Shown one piece after another: positions 12,336 through 26,595 of a DNA stretch of 64,000 bases. The position numbers and the translations under genes were made by a program. The notes beneath the pieces are model-generated. The model did no database searches, was not told the DNA's origin, and saw only the letters and a program-made list of their open reading frames with translations. Positions within the stretch are counted from its first letter, which is position 1. The number at the start of each line of letters is the position of its first letter. This stretch comes from an uncultured Bacteroidota bacterium (GTDB taxonomy: Bacteria > Bacteroidota > Bacteroidia > AKYH767-A > OLB10). The DNA lies in contig CAINEC010000162.1 of NCBI GenBank assembly GCA_903847585.1, forward strand, positions 108,930-172,929. The letters are read 5' to 3'.

Positions 12336-15300
12336 TTATCTGATAATCATTAATGATCCATAAGTTGAAGGTGGTTCGCCTTTATAACTCATTCCATTCC
12401 ATCGGTTGCCATTTTGAAATATAGCATCCACCTTCCAAACATATGCGCCCTGAGGAACTGGCTTATTATTAAAAGTACCATCCCATTTCTCCTCTGGTTG
12501 TCCATTATTTATTTTATTAGACGACCAAACTTTTTCTCCATACGGAGAAAACACCTCAATATTATAAGAAGCCAATCCAACTCCCTTTGGAATAAAATAC
12601 ATCGTTTCGATAGTACCAGCATCAGGAGACAAAGCGTTAGGTATAAATAATGATCCTAAAAAATCTACTTGAATTGCATATATTGCAGTGTCAGGACAAT
12701 CAACATCGTTATAAACTATCAATGAAACATAAAAGATTCCGTTATTATAAAAACGATGTATAGGATTTTTATCATAAACCAAAGGACTACCATCGCCAAA
12801 ATTCCAAACCCATTTTACTGCGTCAATAGATAAATCTGTAAATTGATAAATACCACTTGGATTTATTATTGTATCAACTTGATAAAAGCTAAAATTAGCG
12901 GTTGGAATTGGAAGTACATTAATGGCATTATCAACTTTTAACGTATCGTAGCATACGGAATCTTCATTCGCAATTAAAGTAACATCATATTGTCCAATTT
13001 GATTGTAAGTATAAAAAACAGAACTTCCCAAGATCGTATCTCCATTGCCAAAATCCCAAAACGCATTGCTCGCATTTGAGGATGTATTTATAAAATTGAT
13101 AGTTAATGGAACACAACCTTCCAATGTTAAAGGAATAAATGAAGCATTAGGTTCACCATATACCTTTATGATTTTTTGAATAGTATCTTTACAATTATAT
13201 AGATTACTTGAAATTAATTCCACATTTAATAATTGTGGATCAGAAACTTGCAATATTGGATTTATAGTAACTGATTGACCAATATTACCAAAAAACCAAT
13301 CATAGTTATTAGCTCCTATGCTTAAATTTTGAAACTCTAAATTTGTTGGTGTTTGACAAATTGGATTTTGAATAAAGTTGAAATCTGCAATTGGTACAGG
13401 AAATACGTTAATAAAATTATAAGAAGTATCATCGCTACACAAATTAGAATCTAACAAAAACAAACTAATTGAATATTGACCAGGGGTTATATAGGTATAA
13501 CTAATTGGATTTCCCGTTAAAGTATCTCCATTACCCAAATCCCATAAAAAGAACGAAGCATTTGGTGTAATACTATTTAAATTAATCAAATAAGGAGAAC
13601 AACCATTTATTCCACTCAATACAAATTCGGCTTCAGGATGCTGAACTATTTGTATTGATTTCAATAATGTATCAGGGCAACCATTAATGGAAGAAAAACC
13701 AATTAAAGTTACATTATAAACTCCAGGATCTTCAAAAATGTGGTTCGGAGAAAATGCAACGGAATCAATTGGCGAACTATCTCCGAAATCCCAATAATAA
13801 CCTGAAATATTAGGCGATAAATTAGTTATTTCAATTGTATCGTTATTACAACCTTTAACAGACATTGAGAAGTCTAAAACAGGTTGTGGTAAAACTTCAA
13901 TCGTCTGTGAAATTGAATCAAATCCACATAAATTATCTACATATTGCCAAACTGTAAAAACTCCAGCAGTATCAAACACATGTACAACCGTATCTCCAAA
14001 AGAAGAATAGCCATCACCAAAATCCCAACTTACTACTGAACTTGCCGCAACCACACTTGAAAAAGTACATTTCAAAGGTCGACAACCTTGTACTTTATCT
14101 GAATTAAAAAAAGCTTTGACTTGATTTGGACGGATAGTTACACTTTTTGAAATACTGTCAACTCCGCAACGATTAGAAGATACTAACTTAATTACATAAG
14201 TTGAATCCAATGAATCTGTAACAAAAACTTGTGGTGCTAAAATAGAATCTGTCGAAACTAAAACTCCATTAATATACCATTCATAGTATTGTGGTTGCCC
14301 AGTTGTGACGTTATTAAAAAATATTGTTGCTGGAGAGCAAGAATCATTATAATTAATTCCAAAACCTGGTACCGGGATTGGATATACGGTGATGCTATCT
14401 AATGCGGTAGCGATTCCACAAGCATTACTTGTTGTCAATTGCAAATGATAAATTGTTGAATCGCCAGGCCCTTGATTAAAAACGATGTTGCCTGGATTAT
14501 AAATTGTATCATATACACCATTACCATAATTCCAAGCATACGTATTTGCTCCATAAAAAGAGCTTAAATTATCTATATTTATCGTTAAAGGAGAACAACC
14601 TTTATTTGTATCTAAAACAAAAGATGCATCAGGAGGGGCAATAATTTCAAGTGGAGCTTGTACGGTATCCTTACATCCAAATTGATTTTCGTAAACTAGT
14701 GTAATCGGGTAATTTCCTGAAATATTATATGTATGATTTACTGTATTAAGAAAAGAAAACGGCGAACCATCACCAAAATCCCAAATTGAATTTGTACCAG
14801 GAGCATTATTGGAAAACAACAGTGATTGATTTACACATGCAGTATCAGGGATTTGATATGCACTTGCCGTAGGTTGAAAAATAATTACATTGAAAGTATC
14901 ACGAATGATGCAATTATAACCAAGACCAGAGTCAACAAATGTATACACGACTGTATCCAATGATAAATTAGTATAACTAGGAGAATATGTACCAATAATT
15001 GAATCAGTAATTCCCGAACCTAGCCAATAACCACCAGTTGGGAAACCTGAAAAATTGACCGGATTACTATTGCTACAAAAAAATGTATCACGTCCAGCAT
15101 TAATTCCAGCACCTATCACAGCAACTAAAAATGAATCTTTTACAGCACAAGTAGCGGAACCATATGAATATAAAAAATAGTTGTTTAGTACATTAGTTGA
15201 ATCCGAATTAAAACTAGCACCAATCAAATTTCCATTATATGTCCAAACACCACCGCTTGGAATCGCAGATAGAATTATTGAACCTGCACCCTTGCAAATA

Positions 15301-18300
15301 TTAGTATCACTAGGTAAGTAAAGTACAGGAGGCAATTTATATCTAAATGTATCTGTTAAAATAATTGAGTCACAATCATTCCACACACCAACAGTTACTA
15401 TATATAATCCAGTATCAACAATTGCTACTAAATTGGGATTTGATCCATTATAATTGTAAATAGTGCTACCATTATAATTCACATTCCAAACATAACCTGA
15501 ATCACTAACTCTAGGACTTAAACTATAATAGTCTGTTAAATTTAAAAATATAGAGTCGCACACATCATCAATTTGCTGAATTTGAATAAGTTTGGGACCT
15601 TCTCCTATTTCCACAATAAAATTATCTGAAATCGGATTACAGCCCTGAGTCGAGGCCGTAACTGATAAGGAATAGTAGCCTGGAGAACTAAAATATAAAC
15701 TTGGTGAAGGACTGTTTAAATTTGTCGAATTCACAAATTGAGCATTATTTGCATTCGATAAACCCCATGAATAATCTCCAAATGTTATATTATTTATATA
15801 ATTTACCGTCAGTGTATCACATCCATAAATATAATCTGGATTAATATCTATAACCGGCTTAGGGCTAACCACAACTGTGGCAAATAAGGTGTCAGTGCCA
15901 CAAGGACCATCTACTATCAAACTAATAACATAATTACCAGGCGTATTGTATTTTACAACACCAGGATTAGGTAAATTTGAACTACTTGGTTGTCCTCCAG
16001 TGAAACTCCAATTGTAATTTGAAACAACACCAGAAACATTAAAATATTGTAAAATATTAACAGCTGCAGAATCACAAAAAGGAGGTATAATACTAGCGGT
16101 GATATTAGGACCTTGAGGAAAATAAATCGAATTCGACGTCCAATTACAAACACTTTGAGGAGCAGTACAACAGCCAGTAGCATTTGCTTGAACCGTATAT
16201 GTTCCTGAATTATTTATATCTATATTTGTTTGTGCGCTTGTTGGATTTGCTATTACTGTGCCTAAGACAGGGGTTATTGACCAATTAAATGTTTGAGCAT
16301 TTTGCGCATTAATGTTAGCATTTATTATAACAGGAGTACAATTTCCAGATTGTACTAAACTTGGTTGAATTATGGTAGGAGCCGCAACTCTAACTGAATC
16401 GACAAAAGTGCTATTTCCACAACTATTTGTAACTGTTAATGTAATCGGATAAACACCCGGAGTGTTATAATTAATAGTTGGTGGAATTGATTGAGAACTT
16501 GAACTAGGAGAACCATTTGGGAACTGCCAATTATATTGATTTATAACACCACTACTAACGAAATAATTTGAAGGATTAATTACAGCAGATCCACAAAAAC
16601 TTGGAATTGGATTAGATGTAATATTCGGTCCTTGTATTAAAGAAGTTTGATAACTCCAACTACAAACGCTTGATGGCGCGGTACAGCATCCAGTTGCATT
16701 TGCAGTAATTGTATAACTACCAGGATCATTTATATTAATACTAGTTTGATTATTATTTACATTTGAAATAACTGTATTAATAGAAGGATTTATTCCCCAA
16801 ATTAATGTCTGAGCATTTTGAGCATTCATATTAGCATTTATACTAAGCGGAACGCAATTGCCACCATTACTAACTGTTGGTGTAATAATAGTTGGAGGTA
16901 AAACTCTTACAGTATCAACGATAGTTATTGTATCACAACTACTAAAAACGACTAATGTTAAAGGATATACACCAGGAGTATTATAGCCCACATTACCTGG
17001 TAATGCATTATTACTACTTGATGGATTCCCACCTGGAAATGACCACTGATATTGTGAAATATTTCCTGATGGATTAATATATGTCCTAGGGTTGAAACTC
17101 GCATTGCCGCAAAAGGATGGTATTGGATTAGATGAAATATTAGGCCCTTGTTGTAATGAAATTTGGCTACTCCAACTGCAAACACTTTGAGGTGCTGTAC
17201 AACATCCACTCGCTGAAGCGTTTATTGTATAGAGACCTGGATTACTAATACTAATACTAGTCTGATTTGCATTTGGACTTGTAATACTTGAACCAAGATT
17301 AGGATTTAAACTCCATGCTGTTGTTTGTGCGTTTAAAGCGTTCATGTTTCCATTAAAAACAAGGGGGGCACAATTACTTAAATTTGATAAAACAGGTTGA
17401 ATTATTGTTGGAGGCAAAACCCGAACTGAATCAATTATTGTATCATTTCCACAACTACTGAAAACAATTAATTTTATTGGATACACTGCCGGTGTATTAT
17501 ACGATACATTTCCTGGGTTAGCACTATTACTACTAGTAGGTGTTCCGCCTTGAAAACTCCACTGATATTGTGTAATACTACCTGTTGCGTTTATATATGT
17601 AACAGGATTAAAGGTTGCCGAACCGCAAAAAACAGGTATAGAAGTATTATTAATTGAAGGGCCTTGCAGGATATTAAAGGTAGTATCCCAATGACATCGG
17701 CTGTATGGACCATTACCACCTGATGTATAAGAACAACAACCGGTTACATCAACGCCTATTTGATATTGACCCGCTGAATTTATTTGAATTAATGGTTGAG
17801 AGTCAATTGGAGCCGTAAAACTAATATTATTAGTTGGATTAGATGACCATAGAAATGTAACAGCGTTTTGAGAATTGATATCGGGATGAAAGCTGCTAGG
17901 AGAACACCAATCAGTATTGTTAGATAAAGGATTTATTATTGTGGGAGGCTTTACAATTACATTTTTTGAAACCGAGGAACTACCACAAGGATTTGTTACC
18001 GTATAAGTAATAGTATAAGTACCTGCCGAATAGTATGTATGTGTTCCAGGATTTTCTAAATTAGAGGTTGTGCCATCACCAAAATTCCAAAGATGGGTAG
18101 GTACTGCAGAATTAAAACAAGATGTATTTGTAATATTTACTGGTGATCCAACACAAACAAGTGTATCTACATTTATTTTCGCCTTAGGTTTGAATTTTAT
18201 TTGTATTGGAGTTGTTATCCAATGAAAACTCACTAAACCACTTGAACATGTATCCTTTACCCCTATTTTTATTTCGATAGGAATTCCATCAGGACCTACA

Positions 18301-18590
18301 CAACTATCGGCGGGGAACGAGTATTTATGCTTTTTACATCCTATAAATTTACCAACAAATCGATCAATTGTTCCATCACCCCAACAAATAAAACTTGAAT
18401 CAACGTTACTAACCGTTGTATTTAAAACACCGACTGAATCTCCAATACAAAAAATAGTTTGAGACCCATTACAAACCCCTCCATTAGCAGTAATACTACC
18501 ACAATCGGCTTTTAAGGTCCAATTACTACATTGAGCTAGTCCAAATTGACAATTAGCTATGTATAGGAGCAATATTAAAAGTCTGCGCAT
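12336..18590 (-). CDS. Giant PKD-repeat protein with gliding motility / T9SS-type C-terminal domain
   Basis: 2084 aa with many PKD motifs (WDFGDGxS...YxxPGxYxVTL). C-terminus FIPNALSPDAGTIETMYFIP...YNIEVFSPYGEKVWSS...WDGTFNNKPVPQGAYVWKVDAIFQNG. Confidence 0.92.
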   Translation of the reverse strand: MRRLLILLLYIANCQFGLAQCSNWTLKADCGSITANGGVCNGSQTIFCIGDSVGVLNTTVSNVDSSFICWGDGTIDRFVGKFIGCKKHKYSFPADSCVGPDGIPIEIKIGVKDTCSSGLVSFHWITTPIQIKFKPKAKINVDTLVCVGSPVNITNTSCFNSAVPTHLWNFGDGTTSNLENPGTHTYYSAGTYTITYTVTNPCGSSSVSKNVIVKPPTIINPLSNNTDWCSPSSFHPDINSQNAVTFLWSSNPTNNISFTAPIDSQPLIQINSAGQYQIGVDVTGCCSYTSGGNGPYSRCHWDTTFNILQGPSINNTSIPVFCGSATFNPVTYINATGSITQYQWSFQGGTPTSSNSANPGNVSYNTPAVYPIKLIVFSSCGNDTIIDSVRVLPPTIIQPVLSNLSNCAPLVFNGNMNALNAQTTAWSLNPNLGSSITSPNANQTSISISNPGLYTINASASGCCTAPQSVCSWSSQISLQQGPNISSNPIPSFCGNASFNPRTYINPSGNISQYQWSFPGGNPSSSNNALPGNVGYNTPGVYPLTLVVFSSCDTITIVDTVRVLPPTIITPTVSNGGNCVPLSINANMNAQNAQTLIWGINPSINTVISNVNNNQTSININDPGSYTITANATGCCTAPSSVCSWSYQTSLIQGPNITSNPIPSFCGSAVINPSNYFVSSGVINQYNWQFPNGSPSSSSQSIPPTINYNTPGVYPITLTVTNSCGNSTFVDSVRVAAPTIIQPSLVQSGNCTPVIINANINAQNAQTFNWSITPVLGTVIANPTSAQTNIDINNSGTYTVQANATGCCTAPQSVCNWTSNSIYFPQGPNITASIIPPFCDSAAVNILQYFNVSGVVSNYNWSFTGGQPSSSNLPNPGVVKYNTPGNYVISLIVDGPCGTDTLFATVVVSPKPVIDINPDYIYGCDTLTVNYINNITFGDYSWGLSNANNAQFVNSTNLNSPSPSLYFSSPGYYSLSVTASTQGCNPISDNFIVEIGEGPKLIQIQQIDDVCDSIFLNLTDYYSLSPRVSDSGYVWNVNYNGSTIYNYNGSNPNLVAIVDTGLYIVTVGVWNDCDSIILTDTFRYKLPPVLYLPSDTNICKGAGSIILSAIPSGGVWTYNGNLIGASFNSDSTNVLNNYFLYSYGSATCAVKDSFLVAVIGAGINAGRDTFFCSNSNPVNFSGFPTGGYWLGSGITDSIIGTYSPSYTNLSLDTVVYTFVDSGLGYNCIIRDTFNVIIFQPTASAYQIPDTACVNQSLLFSNNAPGTNSIWDFGDGSPFSFLNTVNHTYNISGNYPITLVYENQFGCKDTVQAPLEIIAPPDASFVLDTNKGCSPLTINIDNLSSFYGANTYAWNYGNGVYDTIYNPGNIVFNQGPGDSTIYHLQLTTSNACGIATALDSITVYPIPVPGFGINYNDSCSPATIFFNNVTTGQPQYYEWYINGVLVSTDSILAPQVFVTDSLDSTYVIKLVSSNRCGVDSISKSVTIRPNQVKAFFNSDKVQGCRPLKCTFSSVVAASSVVSWDFGDGYSSFGDTVVHVFDTAGVFTVWQYVDNLCGFDSISQTIEVLPQPVLDFSMSVKGCNNDTIEITNLSPNISGYYWDFGDSSPIDSVAFSPNHIFEDPGVYNVTLIGFSSINGCPDTLLKSIQIVQHPEAEFVLSGINGCSPYLINLNSITPNASFFLWDLGNGDTLTGNPISYTYITPGQYSISLFLLDSNLCSDDTSYNFINVFPVPIADFNFIQNPICQTPTNLEFQNLSIGANNYDWFFGNIGQSVTINPILQVSDPQLLNVELISSNLYNCKDTIQKIIKVYGEPNASFIPLTLEGCVPLTINFINTSSNASNAFWDFGNGDTILGSSVFYTYNQIGQYDVTLIANEDSVCYDTLKVDNAINVLPIPTANFSFYQVDTIINPSGIYQFTDLSIDAVKWVWNFGDGSPLVYDKNPIHRFYNNGIFYVSLIVYNDVDCPDTAIYAIQVDFLGSLFIPNALSPDAGTIETMYFIPKGVGLASYNIEVFSPYGEKVWSSNKINNGQPEEKWDGTFNNKPVPQGAYVWKVDAIFQNGNRWNGMSYKGEPPSTYGSLMIIR
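15850..17940 (-). repeat. About four tandem ~520-bp coding repeats inside the PKD protein
   Basis: Repeated blocks GPxIxxxxIPxFCxxA...YNTPGVYPxxLxVxxxC...ATGCCTAPxSVCxW at roughly 520-bp spacing. Confidence 0.8.
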
Positions 18591-19639
18591 TTTTTAAATA
18601 TATTGGACTTACTTTTATATTTCTTGTCTCCTGTAACGGCATTAATTGCGAATGTTATTTCATGAACTGGTCCTACATTAGAGAAATTAACACCAGAGAG
18701 GTTCATATCATGAGAATAAGCTACACCAATTAAAAAATCATTAACAACTTTTTCGTATCCCACCGCTGGAATAATTGAATATGCATTACCTCTATATCGA
18801 GTATTAATAAATGATGAATAATACATTCCAAGGTAAAATGACCTATCATTTCGATCATCTAAATAACCGACAAGAGACCCACATTTTATCCTATGTATGG
18901 TAGATTGTTTTTCATACTGTATTGTTGGTTTAATTAGCGGAATATTATAAAATGAATTTTTTTGTATTGTGGTTGCTGCGGTTATAACAAACAATCTTGG
19001 CAGCCTAGTATCCAAGCCTTGCAAAGACTCCCATCCTCGAGATAAAAAATGATTTAAAGATGCATGTAAGTCTAACGGGATTCTGTATTCGTTTAACTTA
19101 AATTTAAATTCGCCAGAAACACTAATACCACAATCATAAAATAAGCTATTTAAAATTGTTGGTGTTAATTGAGATGAGTTTTGATATATCCCAAAAACAG
19201 GGTCTATCTCATCCGAAAAAACCAATTTTGACCAATCAAGAGATTTTCTTTGAACTCCTACGTAACCACCAAAAGTCAAGCTTACTAATTCCTTTTTCTT
19301 TATCTTATATCTTATTGGACACTTTTGACGGACTATCAAATCAGCTCTTTGAGTTTTAATGAAAGCAGCTCCCTCAATATCATTACAAATATTCAATCCA
19401 AATCCTGTATTTTTTTTTGCAGGCTTGATATCAACGTGAAGAAACTGAGTTGTAAATCCACCGGGCACCTCACTCCACTGATTACGATATACTCCGGATA
19501 CATTAACGCCTCCCTTGATAGGCATATACGAAGAATGATAATAAACTAATGTATTGTCAATTTGTGAAAATGACGGGTCCTGCCCCCACCCATTCACATA
19601 AAACATCAAAGAAAAAAACAAGAGTAAAAGCTTCTTCAT
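18575..19639 (-). CDS. PorP/SprF family T9SS membrane protein
   Basis: GQDPSFSQIDNTLVYYHSSYMPIKGGVNVSGVYRNQWSEVPGGFTTQFLHVDI; partner of the adjacent gliding-type protein. Confidence 0.88.
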   Translation of the reverse strand: MKKLLLLFFSLMFYVNGWGQDPSFSQIDNTLVYYHSSYMPIKGGVNVSGVYRNQWSEVPGGFTTQFLHVDIKPAKKNTGFGLNICNDIEGAAFIKTQRADLIVRQKCPIRYKIKKKELVSLTFGGYVGVQRKSLDWSKLVFSDEIDPVFGIYQNSSQLTPTILNSLFYDCGISVSGEFKFKLNEYRIPLDLHASLNHFLSRGWESLQGLDTRLPRLFVITAATTIQKNSFYNIPLIKPTIQYEKQSTIHRIKCGSLVGYLDDRNDRSFYLGMYYSSFINTRYRGNAYSIIPAVGYEKVVNDFLIGVAYSHDMNLSGVNFSNVGPVHEITFAINAVTGDKKYKSKSNIFKKCADF

Positions 19640-19880: not shown

Positions 19881-20582
19881 CTATTTCAAAATAAGCTGCT
19901 CTAACTTCACACCTTCAGCTAACCGATTATTATCAATACTGCCTACTCCTTCCACATGTAAAATATCATATTGCCACATTACATATTTACAACGAGGCTC
20001 CCTGTAAAAATCACTGATCCAATATTGATAATCACTAAATTCTTCTTTCAGGTATTTACGGTAATAATCGTACTCGCAATAAATGATTGGCTTAACACCA
20101 TATTTCGCTTCCACCAATTCACAAAAAGCTTTAATCTCTTTCACAATCCATTGTTTACTTTGTGTACTACTATGTTTCATTTCAACATCTAATATCGGAT
20201 ATAAATCACCTTTGCGTAAACCAACCGTTTTTATGTAATGTTCCGCTTGTAATTTTCCACTCACATCGTAATTGAAAAAGTGATACCCTCCTACTGGAAT
20301 TCCTAATTCACGAAATTTATGCAAACGAATTAGATATGCATCATCAACGTATGATTTCCCTTCGGTAGATTTTAATATTACAAATGCAGGTTTGTTTTCC
20401 TTAACTAACTGATCAAAATCAACATTTTTTTGATGATGTGATATATCAATACCCCAAACAAATTTATTTTTATCCTTCGTAGAAAACCACTTTTTATAAA
20501 AACCTTGCTGATAAAATAAAAAACCTATGGCCACTAAAGCCAATAAAATTATAAACCCAAAAAGTTTAACTAATCTTTTCAT
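19881..20582 (-). CDS. Membrane-anchored GH25 lysozyme/muramidase
   Basis: N-terminal TM segment; FVWGIDISHHQKNVDF, FVILKSTEGKSYVDDAY, VGGYHFFNYD, PILDVEMKH, YCEYDYYRKYL, YVMWQYD. Confidence 0.9.
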   Translation of the reverse strand: MKRLVKLFGFIILLALVAIGFLFYQQGFYKKWFSTKDKNKFVWGIDISHHQKNVDFDQLVKENKPAFVILKSTEGKSYVDDAYLIRLHKFRELGIPVGGYHFFNYDVSGKLQAEHYIKTVGLRKGDLYPILDVEMKHSSTQSKQWIVKEIKAFCELVEAKYGVKPIIYCEYDYYRKYLKEEFSDYQYWISDFYREPRCKYVMWQYDILHVEGVGSIDNNRLAEGVKLEQLILK

Positions 20583-20590
20583 ACTACTAT

Positions 20591-21730
20591 TTAATTTAGT
20601 TTTAAAATTTTTCTAATTTCAATTTCCCTCTGAATATTTCTAAAATCCATATCATACTTTTTAAATATTAAATCCTTTTTCCCGCGAACCATCCCGACAA
20701 AATTGATGTATCCTGATAATCGATTCATAAACTTAATTTCTAACATTTGATTGCTAGCTACTAATCCAAAATGCTTGATAGTCGCAGCCGTCAATCCCTC
20801 CAGTTTTAAATGATATAACATTGCGCGGATTCGCTTTATATATTTTCTATCAACATTGACTTTTTCATTCACCACAATCCCAGTAACTTTTTGCTGCCTT
20901 GCGCTCGACTTTATCCTCACTTTTTTATTATTTACAATAAATCCATTTAGCCTAATGACTTCCTTAATCATTAACAATAAAACATCGGTTATTTCCTCGT
21001 CTGATGAAAATGTTAAGTCATCAGCAAATCGAGTATACGTCAAACCATTACTCTTTGAAAATTCAAGCAACGAATGATCTAAGTCTAAACAAACAAAATT
21101 TGATATGACTGGAGAAGTGGGAGCCCCAGTTGGCAATTTACCTTTGTATGTTAACAATAAAGTTAAAACATTCGTCATATGCTCATTAAAAATAAAATGC
21201 TTTGAACTAAACAACTTTTTTACTCTGGCAGCTGATATGTTTGAAAAGAAATCCTTTAAATCAATATTTAATACATACTTCTTCCCCACATGTACTTTTG
21301 CATTTTCCACGATGTTCGCTTCTGATGTAGTTCGATAATTATAAGGATTAAAAACAAACCCATGAACATGTTTCGGTCTTATATGATAATAGTACGATTG
21401 CAAATAAAAGTTTAACTTTTTTTGAATCGCCATTAAGGTTTCGTCTGGTGATTCAATTGTTCGTAAGCCTCCGGACTTCTTTTTTATTTTATAAGTTGTA
21501 TATACTGGATAATTAACATTTTTTTGAATCGAGCAAAAATCTGCCTTCAACAATAACTCTAATAATCCTGGTGAATTAATACCTAAAAATAAAATGGAAT
21601 TAATTTCATGTTTCAATAAATCCCTATGATTCTCTCTAAACAAATGAAAGTTTTTCCAAATTACAATCGAATGAAACAATTCCTGCCGCCTTTCAGCAGT
21701 TAGTTTTAAAAGTTGCTTGTAATTATTCAT
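20591..21730 (-). CDS. Retron-type reverse transcriptase
   Basis: RT motifs VLNIDLKDFFSNI, LPTGAPTSPVISNF, YTRFADDLTFS; retron-diagnostic NAxxH (ENAKVH) before the catalytic Asp block and VTG (QQKVTGIVVNEK). ATG at 21730 is preferred; the track start at 21766 is TTG and would overlap the a2 repeat. Confidence 0.9.
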   Translation of the reverse strand: MNNYKQLLKLTAERRQELFHSIVIWKNFHLFRENHRDLLKHEINSILFLGINSPGLLELLLKADFCSIQKNVNYPVYTTYKIKKKSGGLRTIESPDETLMAIQKKLNFYLQSYYYHIRPKHVHGFVFNPYNYRTTSEANIVENAKVHVGKKYVLNIDLKDFFSNISAARVKKLFSSKHFIFNEHMTNVLTLLLTYKGKLPTGAPTSPVISNFVCLDLDHSLLEFSKSNGLTYTRFADDLTFSSDEEITDVLLLMIKEVIRLNGFIVNNKKVRIKSSARQQKVTGIVVNEKVNVDRKYIKRIRAMLYHLKLEGLTAATIKHFGLVASNQMLEIKFMNRLSGYINFVGMVRGKKDLIFKKYDMDFRNIQREIEIRKILKLN

Positions 21731-21739
21731 AGTTAAAAA

Positions 21740-21902
21740 AGAGCCGCTGTTAATTATCTTTGACAATTGTGCTATTTATGAGTAGTGAGCGCAGCGAACT
21801 ATGAATAAATAGTTTCGGCAGACTCACTCGATCACGGGTTGCAGGAACACAAACCACTATGTCTCTTTTGTTCGACATCATAATTTTGACTCCAACGGCT
21901 CT
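21740..21902 (-). ncRNA. Candidate retron msr-msd noncoding RNA
   Basis: Noncoding 163 nt upstream of the RT on the same strand. Ends pair over 10 bp: RNA AGAGCCGUUG (21902-21893) with CAGCGGCUCU (21749-21740), one G-U. Contains a 41-nt hairpin (21772-21812) with outer stem CTATTTAT/ATAAATAG. Confidence 0.7.
21772..21812 (-). repeat. Inverted repeat, candidate msd hairpin
   Basis: ctatttatgagtagtgagcgcagcgaactatgaataaatag: 8-bp outer stem, TAGT/ACTA inner stem, GC/GC apex with GCA loop. Confidence 0.75.
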
Positions 21903-21913
21903 GTATTTATTAA

Positions 21914-22975
21914 TTAAAATTCATCTTGACCTAAATCTTTAAATCGATCGATAATAATTCCACCACCAAAATTAAAATCACTAAAATCAAAATGATTATA
22001 ATCGATTACTTTACAAAAATGAAAATGACAGCCCATTCTAACATCATCCACCTTTCCATCTCTGTTTTTTGCGACAATCAATTCCATCAAATTTTTCGTA
22101 CTTGTACCATCTTCCAACATTTCAAGCGTATAATATTCTGGACGATATAAGAAAATAACTTTATCGGCTTCTTGCTCAATCATACCACTATCACGTAAGT
22201 CTGATAGCTGAGGACGCTTTGAACTTCCACGCGATTCTACTGCACGACTTAACTGACTTGTAGCAACGATGCAAATATTATATTCTTTGGCAATTGCTTT
22301 TAACTCACGACAAATGTATCCGATTTCAAATTCACGATTATTTCGAAATTTAGAAGGAATCATAGATTGTAAAAAATCAACAAAAACAACTTTCAACTCT
22401 TTTTCTTTGATTTGCTTCAACAACTCATTTTTAAATTCCTGATAATTCGCATAAGAACATTCTTTGATAAAAAGTTTTAAATTCGCTATTTTTTCTGAAG
22501 CCTTCTTGATAGCCTCTAATTCATACTGAGTAATTCTATCGTAATCGAATTTGCCCATTGAAATTTCACTTACACAACTAAGAACTTTAATTGCCAAATT
22601 GGTTTCTGAATTGTCAAACGAAAATAATTGCACCGCTTGCTTTTCAGCCATGTTGATGGCCATGTTTAAAATAAAGTTCGTCTTGCCCATTCCCGGTCGA
22701 GCACCGACCACCACAAATTCACCAGGAGAGAACCCTCTGAACTTGGCATCAAAATCAGTAAAGCCTGTCAAGATACTATCTTTATAAATGCTCTCCTTGC
22801 TCATTGTTGTTACCAAATTAGTACACAACTCCCCTATAGATTTTGTTTCTTTATGTAAGGTAATTGGAAAGTCTATTTCATTAATTAAATTAATTAACCG
22901 AAGCGTAATTTCAGTATCCTTATTCTGATCATTATCGATAATATTTTGAATTTTATTTCTTAAAGTATTTTGCAT
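21914..22975 (-). CDS. DnaB-like RecA-fold ATPase lacking the usual DnaB N-terminal domain
   Basis: FDAKFRGFSPGEFVVVGARPGMGKTNFILNMA (Walker A), VVFVDFLQSM (Walker B), CIVATSQLSRAVESRGSSKRPQLSDLRDSGMIEQEADKVIFLYRPEYY. Only 353 aa. Confidence 0.85.
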   Translation of the reverse strand: MQNTLRNKIQNIIDNDQNKDTEITLRLINLINEIDFPITLHKETKSIGELCTNLVTTMSKESIYKDSILTGFTDFDAKFRGFSPGEFVVVGARPGMGKTNFILNMAINMAEKQAVQLFSFDNSETNLAIKVLSCVSEISMGKFDYDRITQYELEAIKKASEKIANLKLFIKECSYANYQEFKNELLKQIKEKELKVVFVDFLQSMIPSKFRNNREFEIGYICRELKAIAKEYNICIVATSQLSRAVESRGSSKRPQLSDLRDSGMIEQEADKVIFLYRPEYYTLEMLEDGTSTKNLMELIVAKNRDGKVDDVRMGCHFHFCKVIDYNHFDFSDFNFGGGIIIDRFKDLGQDEF

Positions 22976-23327: not shown

Positions 23328-25049
23328 TTAATCTCTCTTCTTAATAACTAATCGATGAAGTTTTTCAATTTTAATGAATTTAATTTTACTAATGTACTCA
23401 TTCAAATTATTATCCCATAATCCAATGACATAGCACCTCTTGTACCTGAGCATATAAGGTGTTGAATTATAAGATTCCATAATTGGAATTAATGAAACAT
23501 ACTCCTCTTCATCCATATCTTTAAGCTTTCCAAACTCACCTCGTCGAGATAAAGAAGAAAAAGCCTCCACCGATAAATCATTACGTTCCATTAATTCGTT
23601 TAATCTAGAAACATCTAAATCAACATCTGAATTACTTAAAAAATAATCTGATGCAGCATTCAAATCATCATTGACTGCTAACTCTCTAATTTTGTTTAAA
23701 TCATTCAGAATAAGATATTTTACTTTTAAACTATTAATGGAATCAGTAGTAATTGTTTGACTTGCCCATTTTTCTTCTATAAAATGAAAAGGAACACCAA
23801 GGACAGAAAACATATTTATATATGAATCGTCTGAACACCATGCTTCCTGAACTGGCTCCCAAAAATTATCATAACTCCTAACAATACTTTTATACTCATA
23901 AATTGATACAATTAATAGAAGAAAAGAAACAATTGTAAACACCTTTCTTCTCCTAAAAACAAAACCTCCTATTGCATTAGCCAATGAAAATATCAACATT
24001 CCAATAAAAACCTCATCGGTCAATAACTTTTGATACTGACTAATACTAGATCTCCAATACAATCCTCTCGTATCTTGATAATTAATATATAATATTACAA
24101 CACCTACTATTACTAAAAAAGTAAGTACGATTCCAAGAAAACTAGAAAGTCCAAAAAACAAATTAAAAAATTTACTACCACCGACGTTTTCATTTTTTAC
24201 TTTTATAACTTCTTTTTTCTTAGTAGTTTGTTTGATTTTAACAATCTCCCTTTTGATTAAAGAATCTTTCCATTCTAAACAACTATCAAATCGATCATTA
24301 GGATTTTTCTCACAAGCCTTTTGAATTAATGTTGTGAATTTACCATCATAAACAGGGAATGGTTCAGATACTATTCGGTGATAAATAGAATAATGAGATT
24401 CTGTATTAAAATCATAAGGAGCTTTTCCTGTAAGAGCAAAATTTAATGTAACCCCTAATGAATAAATATCAGTCCGATGATCAATATTTTTATCTGCTTT
24501 TACTTGCTCAGGACTCATATAAATAGGGGTTCCCATTTGAACACCTGTTTGAGTCATCTCCATATTTGCACCTAACAATTTTGCAATTCCAAAATCTAAT
24601 ATTTTAACTTCATCGTTGGGTAATAAAAAAATATTAGAAGGCTTTATATCTCTATGAATAATACCCTTTGAATGAGCGAAACTAAAAGCGTCAAGCACCT
24701 GCGTAAATATTTTTTCGGCAGTCGTTTCATGCAATGGACCATTTTGTAATATACGCTCTTTTAAATCTTGTCCGACTAAAAGCTCCATAATTATTGCTAA
24801 ATAATTATTGTTGTTTTCAAAACTTATAATTTTAGCAATATTAGGATGATCCAAAGAAGCCATTAAACGAGCCTCATTAATAAATCGATCTCGAATTTCT
24901 AAATCACTGGAAAAATCACTTTTGAGTACTTTAATTGCAGCTCGTGTACCTAAAAACAAATGCTCTCCCTCGAAAACGATGGCCATGCCCCCCTCTCCAA
25001 TCATCCGTATAATACGATAGTTGCCAATCGCTTTATTTAACAAATCCAT
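23328..25049 (-). CDS. Ser/Thr protein kinase with C-terminal transmembrane region
   Basis: IGEGGMAIVFEGEHLFLGTRAAIKVLK, HRDIKPSNIFLLPNDEVKILDFGIAKLL, GTPIYMSPEQV. Confidence 0.93.
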   Translation of the reverse strand: MDLLNKAIGNYRIIRMIGEGGMAIVFEGEHLFLGTRAAIKVLKSDFSSDLEIRDRFINEARLMASLDHPNIAKIISFENNNNYLAIIMELLVGQDLKERILQNGPLHETTAEKIFTQVLDAFSFAHSKGIIHRDIKPSNIFLLPNDEVKILDFGIAKLLGANMEMTQTGVQMGTPIYMSPEQVKADKNIDHRTDIYSLGVTLNFALTGKAPYDFNTESHYSIYHRIVSEPFPVYDGKFTTLIQKACEKNPNDRFDSCLEWKDSLIKREIVKIKQTTKKKEVIKVKNENVGGSKFFNLFFGLSSFLGIVLTFLVIVGVVILYINYQDTRGLYWRSSISQYQKLLTDEVFIGMLIFSLANAIGGFVFRRRKVFTIVSFLLLIVSIYEYKSIVRSYDNFWEPVQEAWCSDDSYINMFSVLGVPFHFIEEKWASQTITTDSINSLKVKYLILNDLNKIRELAVNDDLNAASDYFLSNSDVDLDVSRLNELMERNDLSVEAFSSLSRRGEFGKLKDMDEEEYVSLIPIMESYNSTPYMLRYKRCYVIGLWDNNLNEYISKIKFIKIEKLHRLVIKKRD

Positions 25050-25098
25050 ATTAATTATATTTAAAGACTAAAATAAAAAAATAGTAAATATTTTCTAC

Positions 25099-26595
25099 TT
25101 AAGTATCAGCTGAATCTTTCCTTTCATAGACCGTTTTTAAGTTCGTATAAAATTTTGCGAACGTCATATTAAACAAAGGCACTAACCATAGTAATGCGAT
25201 TCCACAGGTTAAAATTGACAACAAACATAACCCAGCAAATCGTAAATGAAGTCGGAATAATTGAGCCTTATTCCCTTCCATCATTTTCTTACTTAATGCG
25301 ATAGCATCATCTGCAGCTAAACTAGGATTGTCAATTAAAATAAAATAAGTTAGTGAAACAGATAAAGCTTCGATAATTCCTGGAACTATTAATAATAGAA
25401 TTCGGAGAAAAACACGGAAAAAAATCAACCAAAACACCTTAAAAGATTTTGAAAAAACATTGTAACCATAAAAGAAATCTCCAAATTTCATCTCTTTATT
25501 GCGCGCCAATCCTAAAAAATAATAAGAAGTCCCCATCATTTCAGTGCCCATAACTAATAAATACAAAATTGAAAAAACAAACCTTGCGATAGAAAAAATG
25601 AACATTGCACCTAGATTCGAAAAAACTATAGATGTCCAATTACCTTTTAGGCTATTGTTTGCTATCCTAAATAGTTCTGAATTACTTTTGAGTGTTGAAC
25701 TATCCTCAATATCCAATTTAGTATCGACATTATTATTTGGCCCATTCACCTTTAATGGAGGAGGAATTTGCAACGGAGGCGGTACATTTAGCCGTGATTC
25801 ATCATCAAATGATAAACTCCATTCAATGCAAGTTTGAAATCTACTGTCTTTATTTTTATGACAGGCTTTTTCAATCAACTTGGAAAACTTGCTGTTAATC
25901 GATAATGGAGGAAGAGGCGAAAAAACTATCTTATTCAAAATATCAAACTGCGAATCAGTTATCGAATCATATGGAGGCTTACCACAAATAGCAAAATATA
26001 ATGTAACACCTAATGAATAAATATCCGTCCGATGATCAATATTTTTTTCGGCTCTTACTTGTTCAGGACTCATATATACAGGTGTACCCATCTGAGATCC
26101 TGTAGTAGTCAGCTCATTTGCTTGAGATAACAACTTTGCAATTCCGAAGTCAAGGATTTTAATATTTCCATCAGGTAGAATAAAAATATTAGATGGTTTG
26201 ATGTCTCGATGAACAATCCCTTTTTCGTGTGCATGCTGAATCGCAAATAGCGCTTGCTTGAAAATTCGTTTTATTTCGATTTCTTTAAGCGGTCCCTCTC
26301 TTTTGATTTTTTGATTTAAATCTTCCCCCTCCAAATACTCCATTACAATTGCTAATTGACCTGGTAACTCGATAAAGTCTTTGACTTGTAAAATATTTTC
26401 ATGATTTAAGGTAGCCATTAGCCTAGCTTCGTTTTTAAAACGATCTCTTAATTCACTATTTGAAGAAAGTAAAGGATTAAGCACTTTAATGGCTACCCTT
26501 GTTCCTAAAAAGTCATTTACACCTTCATAAACAGATGCCATTCCACCCTCACCCAACAACCTAACAAGACTAAAATTACCAATCTTTTGTAGCAT
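25099..26595 (-). CDS. Ser/Thr protein kinase, paralogue of the adjacent kinase
   Basis: LGEGGMASVYEGVNDFLGTRVAIKVL, HRDIKPSNIFILPDGNIKILDFGIAKLL, GTPVYMSPEQV; Pro-rich linker and C-terminal membrane domain. Confidence 0.93.
   Translation of the reverse strand: MLQKIGNFSLVRLLGEGGMASVYEGVNDFLGTRVAIKVLNPLLSSNSELRDRFKNEARLMATLNHENILQVKDFIELPGQLAIVMEYLEGEDLNQKIKREGPLKEIEIKRIFKQALFAIQHAHEKGIVHRDIKPSNIFILPDGNIKILDFGIAKLLSQANELTTTGSQMGTPVYMSPEQVRAEKNIDHRTDIYSLGVTLYFAICGKPPYDSITDSQFDILNKIVFSPLPPLSINSKFSKLIEKACHKNKDSRFQTCIEWSLSFDDESRLNVPPPLQIPPPLKVNGPNNNVDTKLDIEDSSTLKSNSELFRIANNSLKGNWTSIVFSNLGAMFIFSIARFVFSILYLLVMGTEMMGTSYYFLGLARNKEMKFGDFFYGYNVFSKSFKVFWLIFFRVFLRILLLIVPGIIEALSVSLTYFILIDNPSLAADDAIALSKKMMEGNKAQLFRLHLRFAGLCLLSILTCGIALLWLVPLFNMTFAKFYTNLKTVYERKDSADT

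Follow-up and report, generated by a model that had tools for sequence, protein, structure and literature searches.

In the 64,000-nt window analysed here (the whole stretch of DNA, from an uncultured Bacteroidota bacterium), a gene for a DnaB-like ATPase, a noncoding RNA (ncRNA) and a gene for a reverse transcriptase (RT) follow one another in this order (Table 1). A retron is a bacterial RT with its own template RNA, usually serving as an anti-phage device, and retron types are defined by their partners. Our results suggested that the three parts probably make up a retron of a new type, organized as one operon, in which the DnaB-like protein would be the effector.

Table 1. Features of the retron locus in the window and the basis of their assignment.
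Feature	Position	Strand	Basis
Retron RT, 379 aa (NAKVH, FADD, VTG; no fused effector domain)	20591..21730	-	PADLOC models, nearest structures, motifs, tree
Retron ncRNA (msr-msd), about 165 nt	21738..21902	-	Covariance model R1, 129 bits, E 3e-25 (locus within the training set)
a1 repeat AGAGCCGUUG	21893..21902	-	Complementarity to a2, alignment, covariation
a2 repeat CAGCGGCUCU	21740..21749	-	Complementarity to a1, alignment, covariation
Inner a1/a2 extension AAUUAU, partner AUAAUU at 21752-21757	21880..21885	-	Kept in members of alignment A7; helix 2, 98.9% of cells paired
Candidate branch guanosine, first base past the a1/a2 duplex	21879	-	Invariant G in A7; analogy to rG15 of Eco2 (PMC12405507)
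msr hairpin GGUUUGUGUUCCUGCAACC, like the single Ec67/Eco2 msr stem-loop GGTTGTGAATCGCAACC	21837..21855	-	Alignment, covariation
Putative msd hairpin CUAUUUAU ... AUAAAUAG, putative template of the msDNA stem	21772..21812	-	Recurs between loci while the stem sequence varies
DnaB-like helicase ATPase, 353 aa, DnaB_C only; putative retron effector	21914..22975	-	Pfam DnaB_C E 4e-73; constant RT neighbour; separate tree branch
GH25 lysozyme-like protein with N-terminal membrane segment, just past the RT	19881..20582	-	Optional; 2/24 loci

The reverse transcriptase and its noncoding RNA

An initial annotation of this DNA had claimed four RT motifs and, upstream of the RT, a 163-nt segment whose complementary ends form a 10-bp duplex with one G-U pair. 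All the motifs were found in the RT open reading frame (ORF), namely NAKVH at residue 143, FADD at 235, VTG at 282 and also GAPTSP, and the coordinates and pairing of the segment, including the a1-to-a2 span of 163 nt, were exactly as described. We placed the start of the RT at the ATG at 21730; a TTG-start ORF reaching 21766 would overlap the ncRNA. NAxxH, [YF]ADD and VTG were present in the RTs of all 19 loci first examined. Judged from its sequence, the RT of the window looks intact, its catalytic motifs included, and we infer that the retron is functional.

The top PADLOC models for the RT were those of retron types I-C, XI and XII (E 1e-94 to 1e-82), and the nearest solved structures were the RTs of retrons Ec67 (E 4e-38) and Ec86. 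In a tree with references from retron types I-C, II-A, III-A, XI, XII and XIII, the RT of the window joined its relatives in a single clade (support 95/94) beside XI, XII and part of I-C. A retron-like RT with NARKH, YADD and VTG, encoded directly between a CRISPR-like (clustered regularly interspaced short palindromic repeats) repeat array and Cas1 (L171; G507:C49, 1-2885), fell near the RTs of the DnaB-linked retrons. We considered this Cas1-linked RT as a member lacking DnaB and rejected it, as it sits on a long branch (1.69). Its position inside the clade is what could be said for a non-retron RT in the window, of the group II intron, diversity-generating retroelement, CRISPR or defence-associated RT kind. 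However, the group II maturase and Drt2 profiles scored 44.8 and 38.1 bits, far under the 245 bits of retron Ec67; the locus has both the motifs and the ncRNA of a retron; and the length of the L171 branch also speaks against it. A non-retron identity is extremely improbable, and we are almost certain that the RT-ncRNA system is a retron.

The 163-nt segment encodes a structured RNA bounded by a1 and a2. Its fold (-48.2 kcal/mol) was more stable than the mean of dinucleotide shuffles (-34.4; z -3.6), none of the 200 being as low, and the mean folding z of 16 homologues was -4.9. In the alignment of 16 trimmed ncRNAs (A7), a conserved a1/a2 duplex is followed by the inner AUUAU/AUAAU extension and then by an invariant G. 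A GUC/GAC hairpin and the GGUUGUGNNCCUGCAACC hairpin are conserved as well. Two-sided changes were observed at 12 of the 28 base pairs (shuffled mean 4.3; 0 of 500 shuffles equalled that), and 94.8% of the cells in the helices were paired, compared with 32-54% when the partner was slid. Deeper members have very different ends that kept their complementarity, e.g. GAGCCCUUG/CAAGGGCUC in L161 and AAACGGGUAGGA/UCCUACCCGUUU in L168.

The G at 21879 is a candidate branch point because it is analogous to G15 of Eco2, which follows the a1/a2 repeats in an ncRNA with one msr stem-loop (PMC12405507). As the msd region alone is just modestly more stable than its shuffles (mean z -1.8), the putative msd hairpin is supported mainly by its recurrence. 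The msd loop GCUCACUNCGUUCCGCU is common to many A7 members despite their differing stems, and it might be a recognition element of the multicopy single-stranded DNA (msDNA).

No Rfam family matched the ncRNA segment at the gathering threshold. Our covariance model scored all 19 loci; L168, which lies outside the model, was matched with E 3e-6, and the matches of L169 (0.03) and L170 (0.01) were weak. Among the 395 sampled genomes of the class, 12 had one match each, always at a DnaB-retron locus, and the other genomes had none. These 12 loci all belong to the training set of the model, and the result bears on its specificity. Five held-out loci served as an independent test. Four of them matched, two very strongly (E 2e-21 and 3e-17). 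In the fifth, L225, complementary ends (CAUGCGCU/AGCGCAUG) were spotted by eye.

The DnaB-like gene and its distribution

The DnaB-like gene sits directly upstream of the ncRNA and the RT. All 19 loci examined in detail showed a DnaB-like gene, a gap of about 100-630 nt and an RT on one strand. Five later loci also had the DnaB-like gene, one of them truncated at a contig end. Across the class Bacteroidia, all 24 loci thus had it just upstream of the RT and in the same orientation. The DnaB-like gene, the ncRNA and the RT form the only constant unit, and none of the downstream genes was common to more than two loci.

Relatives were found in a genome of the same genus (G008), in two genomes of the same order, in a contig of a Paludibacter metagenome-assembled genome and then in many Bacteroidia families. 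The system was present in 15 of the 395 sampled genomes of the class; in a sample of 396 genomes of the phylum that was drawn another way, the only close match was in the window's own genome. Viral contigs contained just other RT types and ordinary phage DnaBs. One of them, L135, matched the a1/a2 pattern and was dismissed as a chance match, as it falls within a terminase gene. The plasmid relatives (L140-L144) were other retron types with other neighbours.

A mirror-tree comparison of 16 loci gave a correlation of 0.83 (P = 5e-5) between the distances of RTs and retron DnaBs. The correlation of the RT with host DnaB was 0.05, and the partial correlation of RT and retron DnaB given the host was 0.84. 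Therefore, the three parts of the cassette evolve together, with little dependence on the phylogeny of the hosts. It could be argued that the DnaB-like gene neighbours the RT by chance or is a resident gene, considering that DnaB occurs in all bacterial genomes and that an orphan relative of the retron-type protein exists. This is already contradicted by the same strand and order in 24 of 24 loci from many families. In addition, the gene co-evolved with the RT and not with the host, and it has its own branch in the tree. We regard chance neighbourhood as very improbable and are highly confident that the DnaB-like gene truly belongs to the retron.

The DnaB-like protein comprises a DnaB_C (PF03796) domain and the DnaB linker region; the primase-binding N-terminal domain is absent. 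It scored 254 bits with TIGR00665, the equivalog model of full-length DnaB, which is under the cut-off of 385, and aligned to positions 112-429 of 435. The host genome encodes a separate full-length DnaB of 514 aa, 46% identical to it. Retron DnaBs share with the replicative helicase the DnaB_C domain, Walker A, Walker B and the SDLR[DE]SG block, but most of them are devoid of the N-terminal domain, and they form a separate, retron-linked clade. The branch dividing them from 16 host and 20 phage DnaBs had support of 99/97 (the row 'L195_host' of this tree is the short orphan relative, not a host helicase). They differ also at the SLEM-motif Glu, known from work on DnaB and T7 gp4 to be the catalytic base. 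Among 18 retron copies this position was Asp in 11, Glu in five and another residue in two, whereas every host and phage copy had Glu.

Relation to known retrons and possible mechanism

Ec67/Eco2 (type I-C, RT-Toprim) is the nearest solved relative of the RT and resembles the system in its single msd hairpin; the candidate branch G of our ncRNA lies, as in Eco2, just past a1/a2. The two also have the msr stem-loop GGTTGTG..GCAACC in common, the Ec67 sequence having been verified at the RT locus of Ec67 in E. coli S10. However, the effector of Eco2 is a Toprim RNase fused to the RT (PMC12405507), whereas here the RT is unfused and a DnaB-like ATPase encoded separately upstream is its partner. 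An additional msr hairpin (GUC..GAC) also sets the ncRNA apart. Types XI (RT-protease) and XII (RT-TIR), which shared the top PADLOC scores with I-C and are sister groups in the RT tree, are single-gene fusions, and neither a protease nor a TIR domain was found here. Retron-Sda1, which joins a type III-A RT and ncRNA with HipA/DUF3037 (PMC12548924), is a precedent for the capture of an unusual partner by a retron RT clade, with some cases in Bacteroidota (PMC12548924), but its RT, ncRNA and partner are all different from ours.

The locus has none of the type-defining partners or fused domains of the known retron types in PADLOC 2.0.0. The DnaB-like protein matched no retron component in it, only mad8 and that weakly (E 9e-7), and PADLOC-DB 2.0.0 (2023) lists no DnaB retron partner among its components. 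In the literature, we found no system pairing a retron with DnaB or a replicative helicase; most subscription journals and the type-defining neighbour tables were beyond reach, and this absence is not proof. To our knowledge, few retrons have been characterised in Bacteroidota. The DnaB-partnered retron is apparently a new, seemingly undescribed type found across this phylum.

The initial annotation had proposed an undescribed retron at 20591-21902. This interpretation was supported, though incomplete: the PADLOC models, the structures and the tree all put the RT inside the retrons; homologous loci kept a1/a2 with compensatory changes; and the covariance-model search returned DnaB-retron loci, held-out ones among them. 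The type does appear to be new. What the annotation missed was the DnaB-like partner, in which the novelty lies; the interval covered the RT and the ncRNA and left this constant gene outside.

Three elements of the mechanism we propose are supported by the sequence: an RNA fold in which a1 pairs with a2 and encloses an Eco2-like msr hairpin and a putative msd hairpin, a retron RT whose catalytic motifs are intact, and a DnaB-like protein that is its constant and co-evolving partner. In the further steps, the 2'-OH of the invariant G would prime the copying of the msd by the RT, which together with the msDNA would restrain the DnaB-like ring. A phage that alters the msDNA or the RT, e.g. by a nuclease or a single-strand-binding protein (SSB), might free this ring, a DnaB motor with its linker but without the primase-binding domain and, in most members, with the catalytic Glu replaced by Asp. 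Once free, the ring might stall replication, either by loading onto single-stranded DNA or by mixing with the DnaB of host or phage, whereby the infected cell would abort the infection. Restraint and release is likely here because known retrons follow that scheme (PMC12548924, PMC13405049); the specific action of the ring is our best guess.

It seems fairly likely, on these comparisons, that the DnaB-like protein is the retron effector. We suggest only tentatively that it acts through a replication block. More tentative still is the full proposal, in which a paralogue of the replicative helicase, catalytically altered and uncoupled from primase, serves as the effector. The RT and msDNA would keep it silent until infection sets it free to hijack or jam host and phage forks, and such a defence system would turn the replisome's own motor into a weapon.

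Several observations weigh against this interpretation. The catalytic Glu is retained in five of the 18 retron copies. In three deep members (L169, L170 and L229), the protein is longer and its DnaB N-terminal domain can still be recognised, and the loss of this domain is thus not universal; as these members still have it, the short form probably arose by its loss. An orphan relative of 317 aa (L195; G433:C237, 1513-2466) has no RT or ncRNA nearby, which shows that a protein of this kind can occur alone.

It is also conceivable, but rather unlikely, that the ATPase is a sensor or remodelling motor around single-stranded msDNA, which senses fork DNA or SSB and passes on a signal, the toxic step lying elsewhere, e.g. 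in the variable downstream genes. DnaB-family rings bind single-stranded DNA, which msDNA is, and variable short genes are tightly spaced after the RT at some loci (GH25 in the window, L138 and L164). However, with no downstream gene in more than two loci, the constant DnaB-ncRNA-RT unit would be left without a toxin.

If the DnaB-like motor is indeed the partner, it would define a new type, spread over many Bacteroidia families, in which retron sensing is tied directly to the replication fork. As a covariance model is at hand, the compact pair of RT and ncRNA described here could be useful for finding further members and for genome editing in this phylum.

Local history and neighbouring genes

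Positions 3652-35705 of the window and locus L137 of G008 are syntenic orthologous sites in two species of one genus. We had first taken their flanks to be different, and the wider comparison overturned this. The flanks are 77-100% identical (97% for a 470-aa neighbour), compared with 54% for DnaB, 55% for the RT, 71% for GH25 and 78% for the ncRNA. The contrast implied either unusually fast divergence of the cassette or allele replacement. Other species of the genus have different genes beside parts of the same flanks, on separate contigs. Such site variability and fast divergence would fit defence genes, which is no proof of defence.

In both the window and G008, only about a dozen nucleotides at most separate the RT stop from the start of the GH25 gene, and within the genus it is confined to these two retron-carrying genomes. 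Together with its membrane segment, this might suggest that the GH25 protein acts as the effector by lysing the cell from its periplasmic side, and that the DnaB-like protein is accessory. We consider this quite improbable, as the gene occurs in only two of the 24 loci, both being orthologous sites in one genus; for the same reason it was rejected as a general third component. Between GH25 and the conserved flank, the window (12336-19639) encodes a 2084-aa repeat-rich secreted-type protein beside a PorP/SprF protein, and this pair is missing from G008.

Upstream of the retron, at 23328-26595, there are two adjacent serine/threonine kinases with membrane tails. The one compared with PADLOC-type defence models scores with PD-T4-6 kinase models, which may merely reflect the kinase fold. 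A second RT, at 692-1648 of L166, lies about 3.3 kb from the retron of that locus, and its best PADLOC models are generic RT and UG17. Neighbours at other related loci (L138 4930-6747, L158 2529-3611 and L161 3533-4759) include an ADP-ribosyltransferase/glycohydrolase, a SoFic-type Fic protein and a phage-type integrase, which is suggestive of defence or mobile regions.
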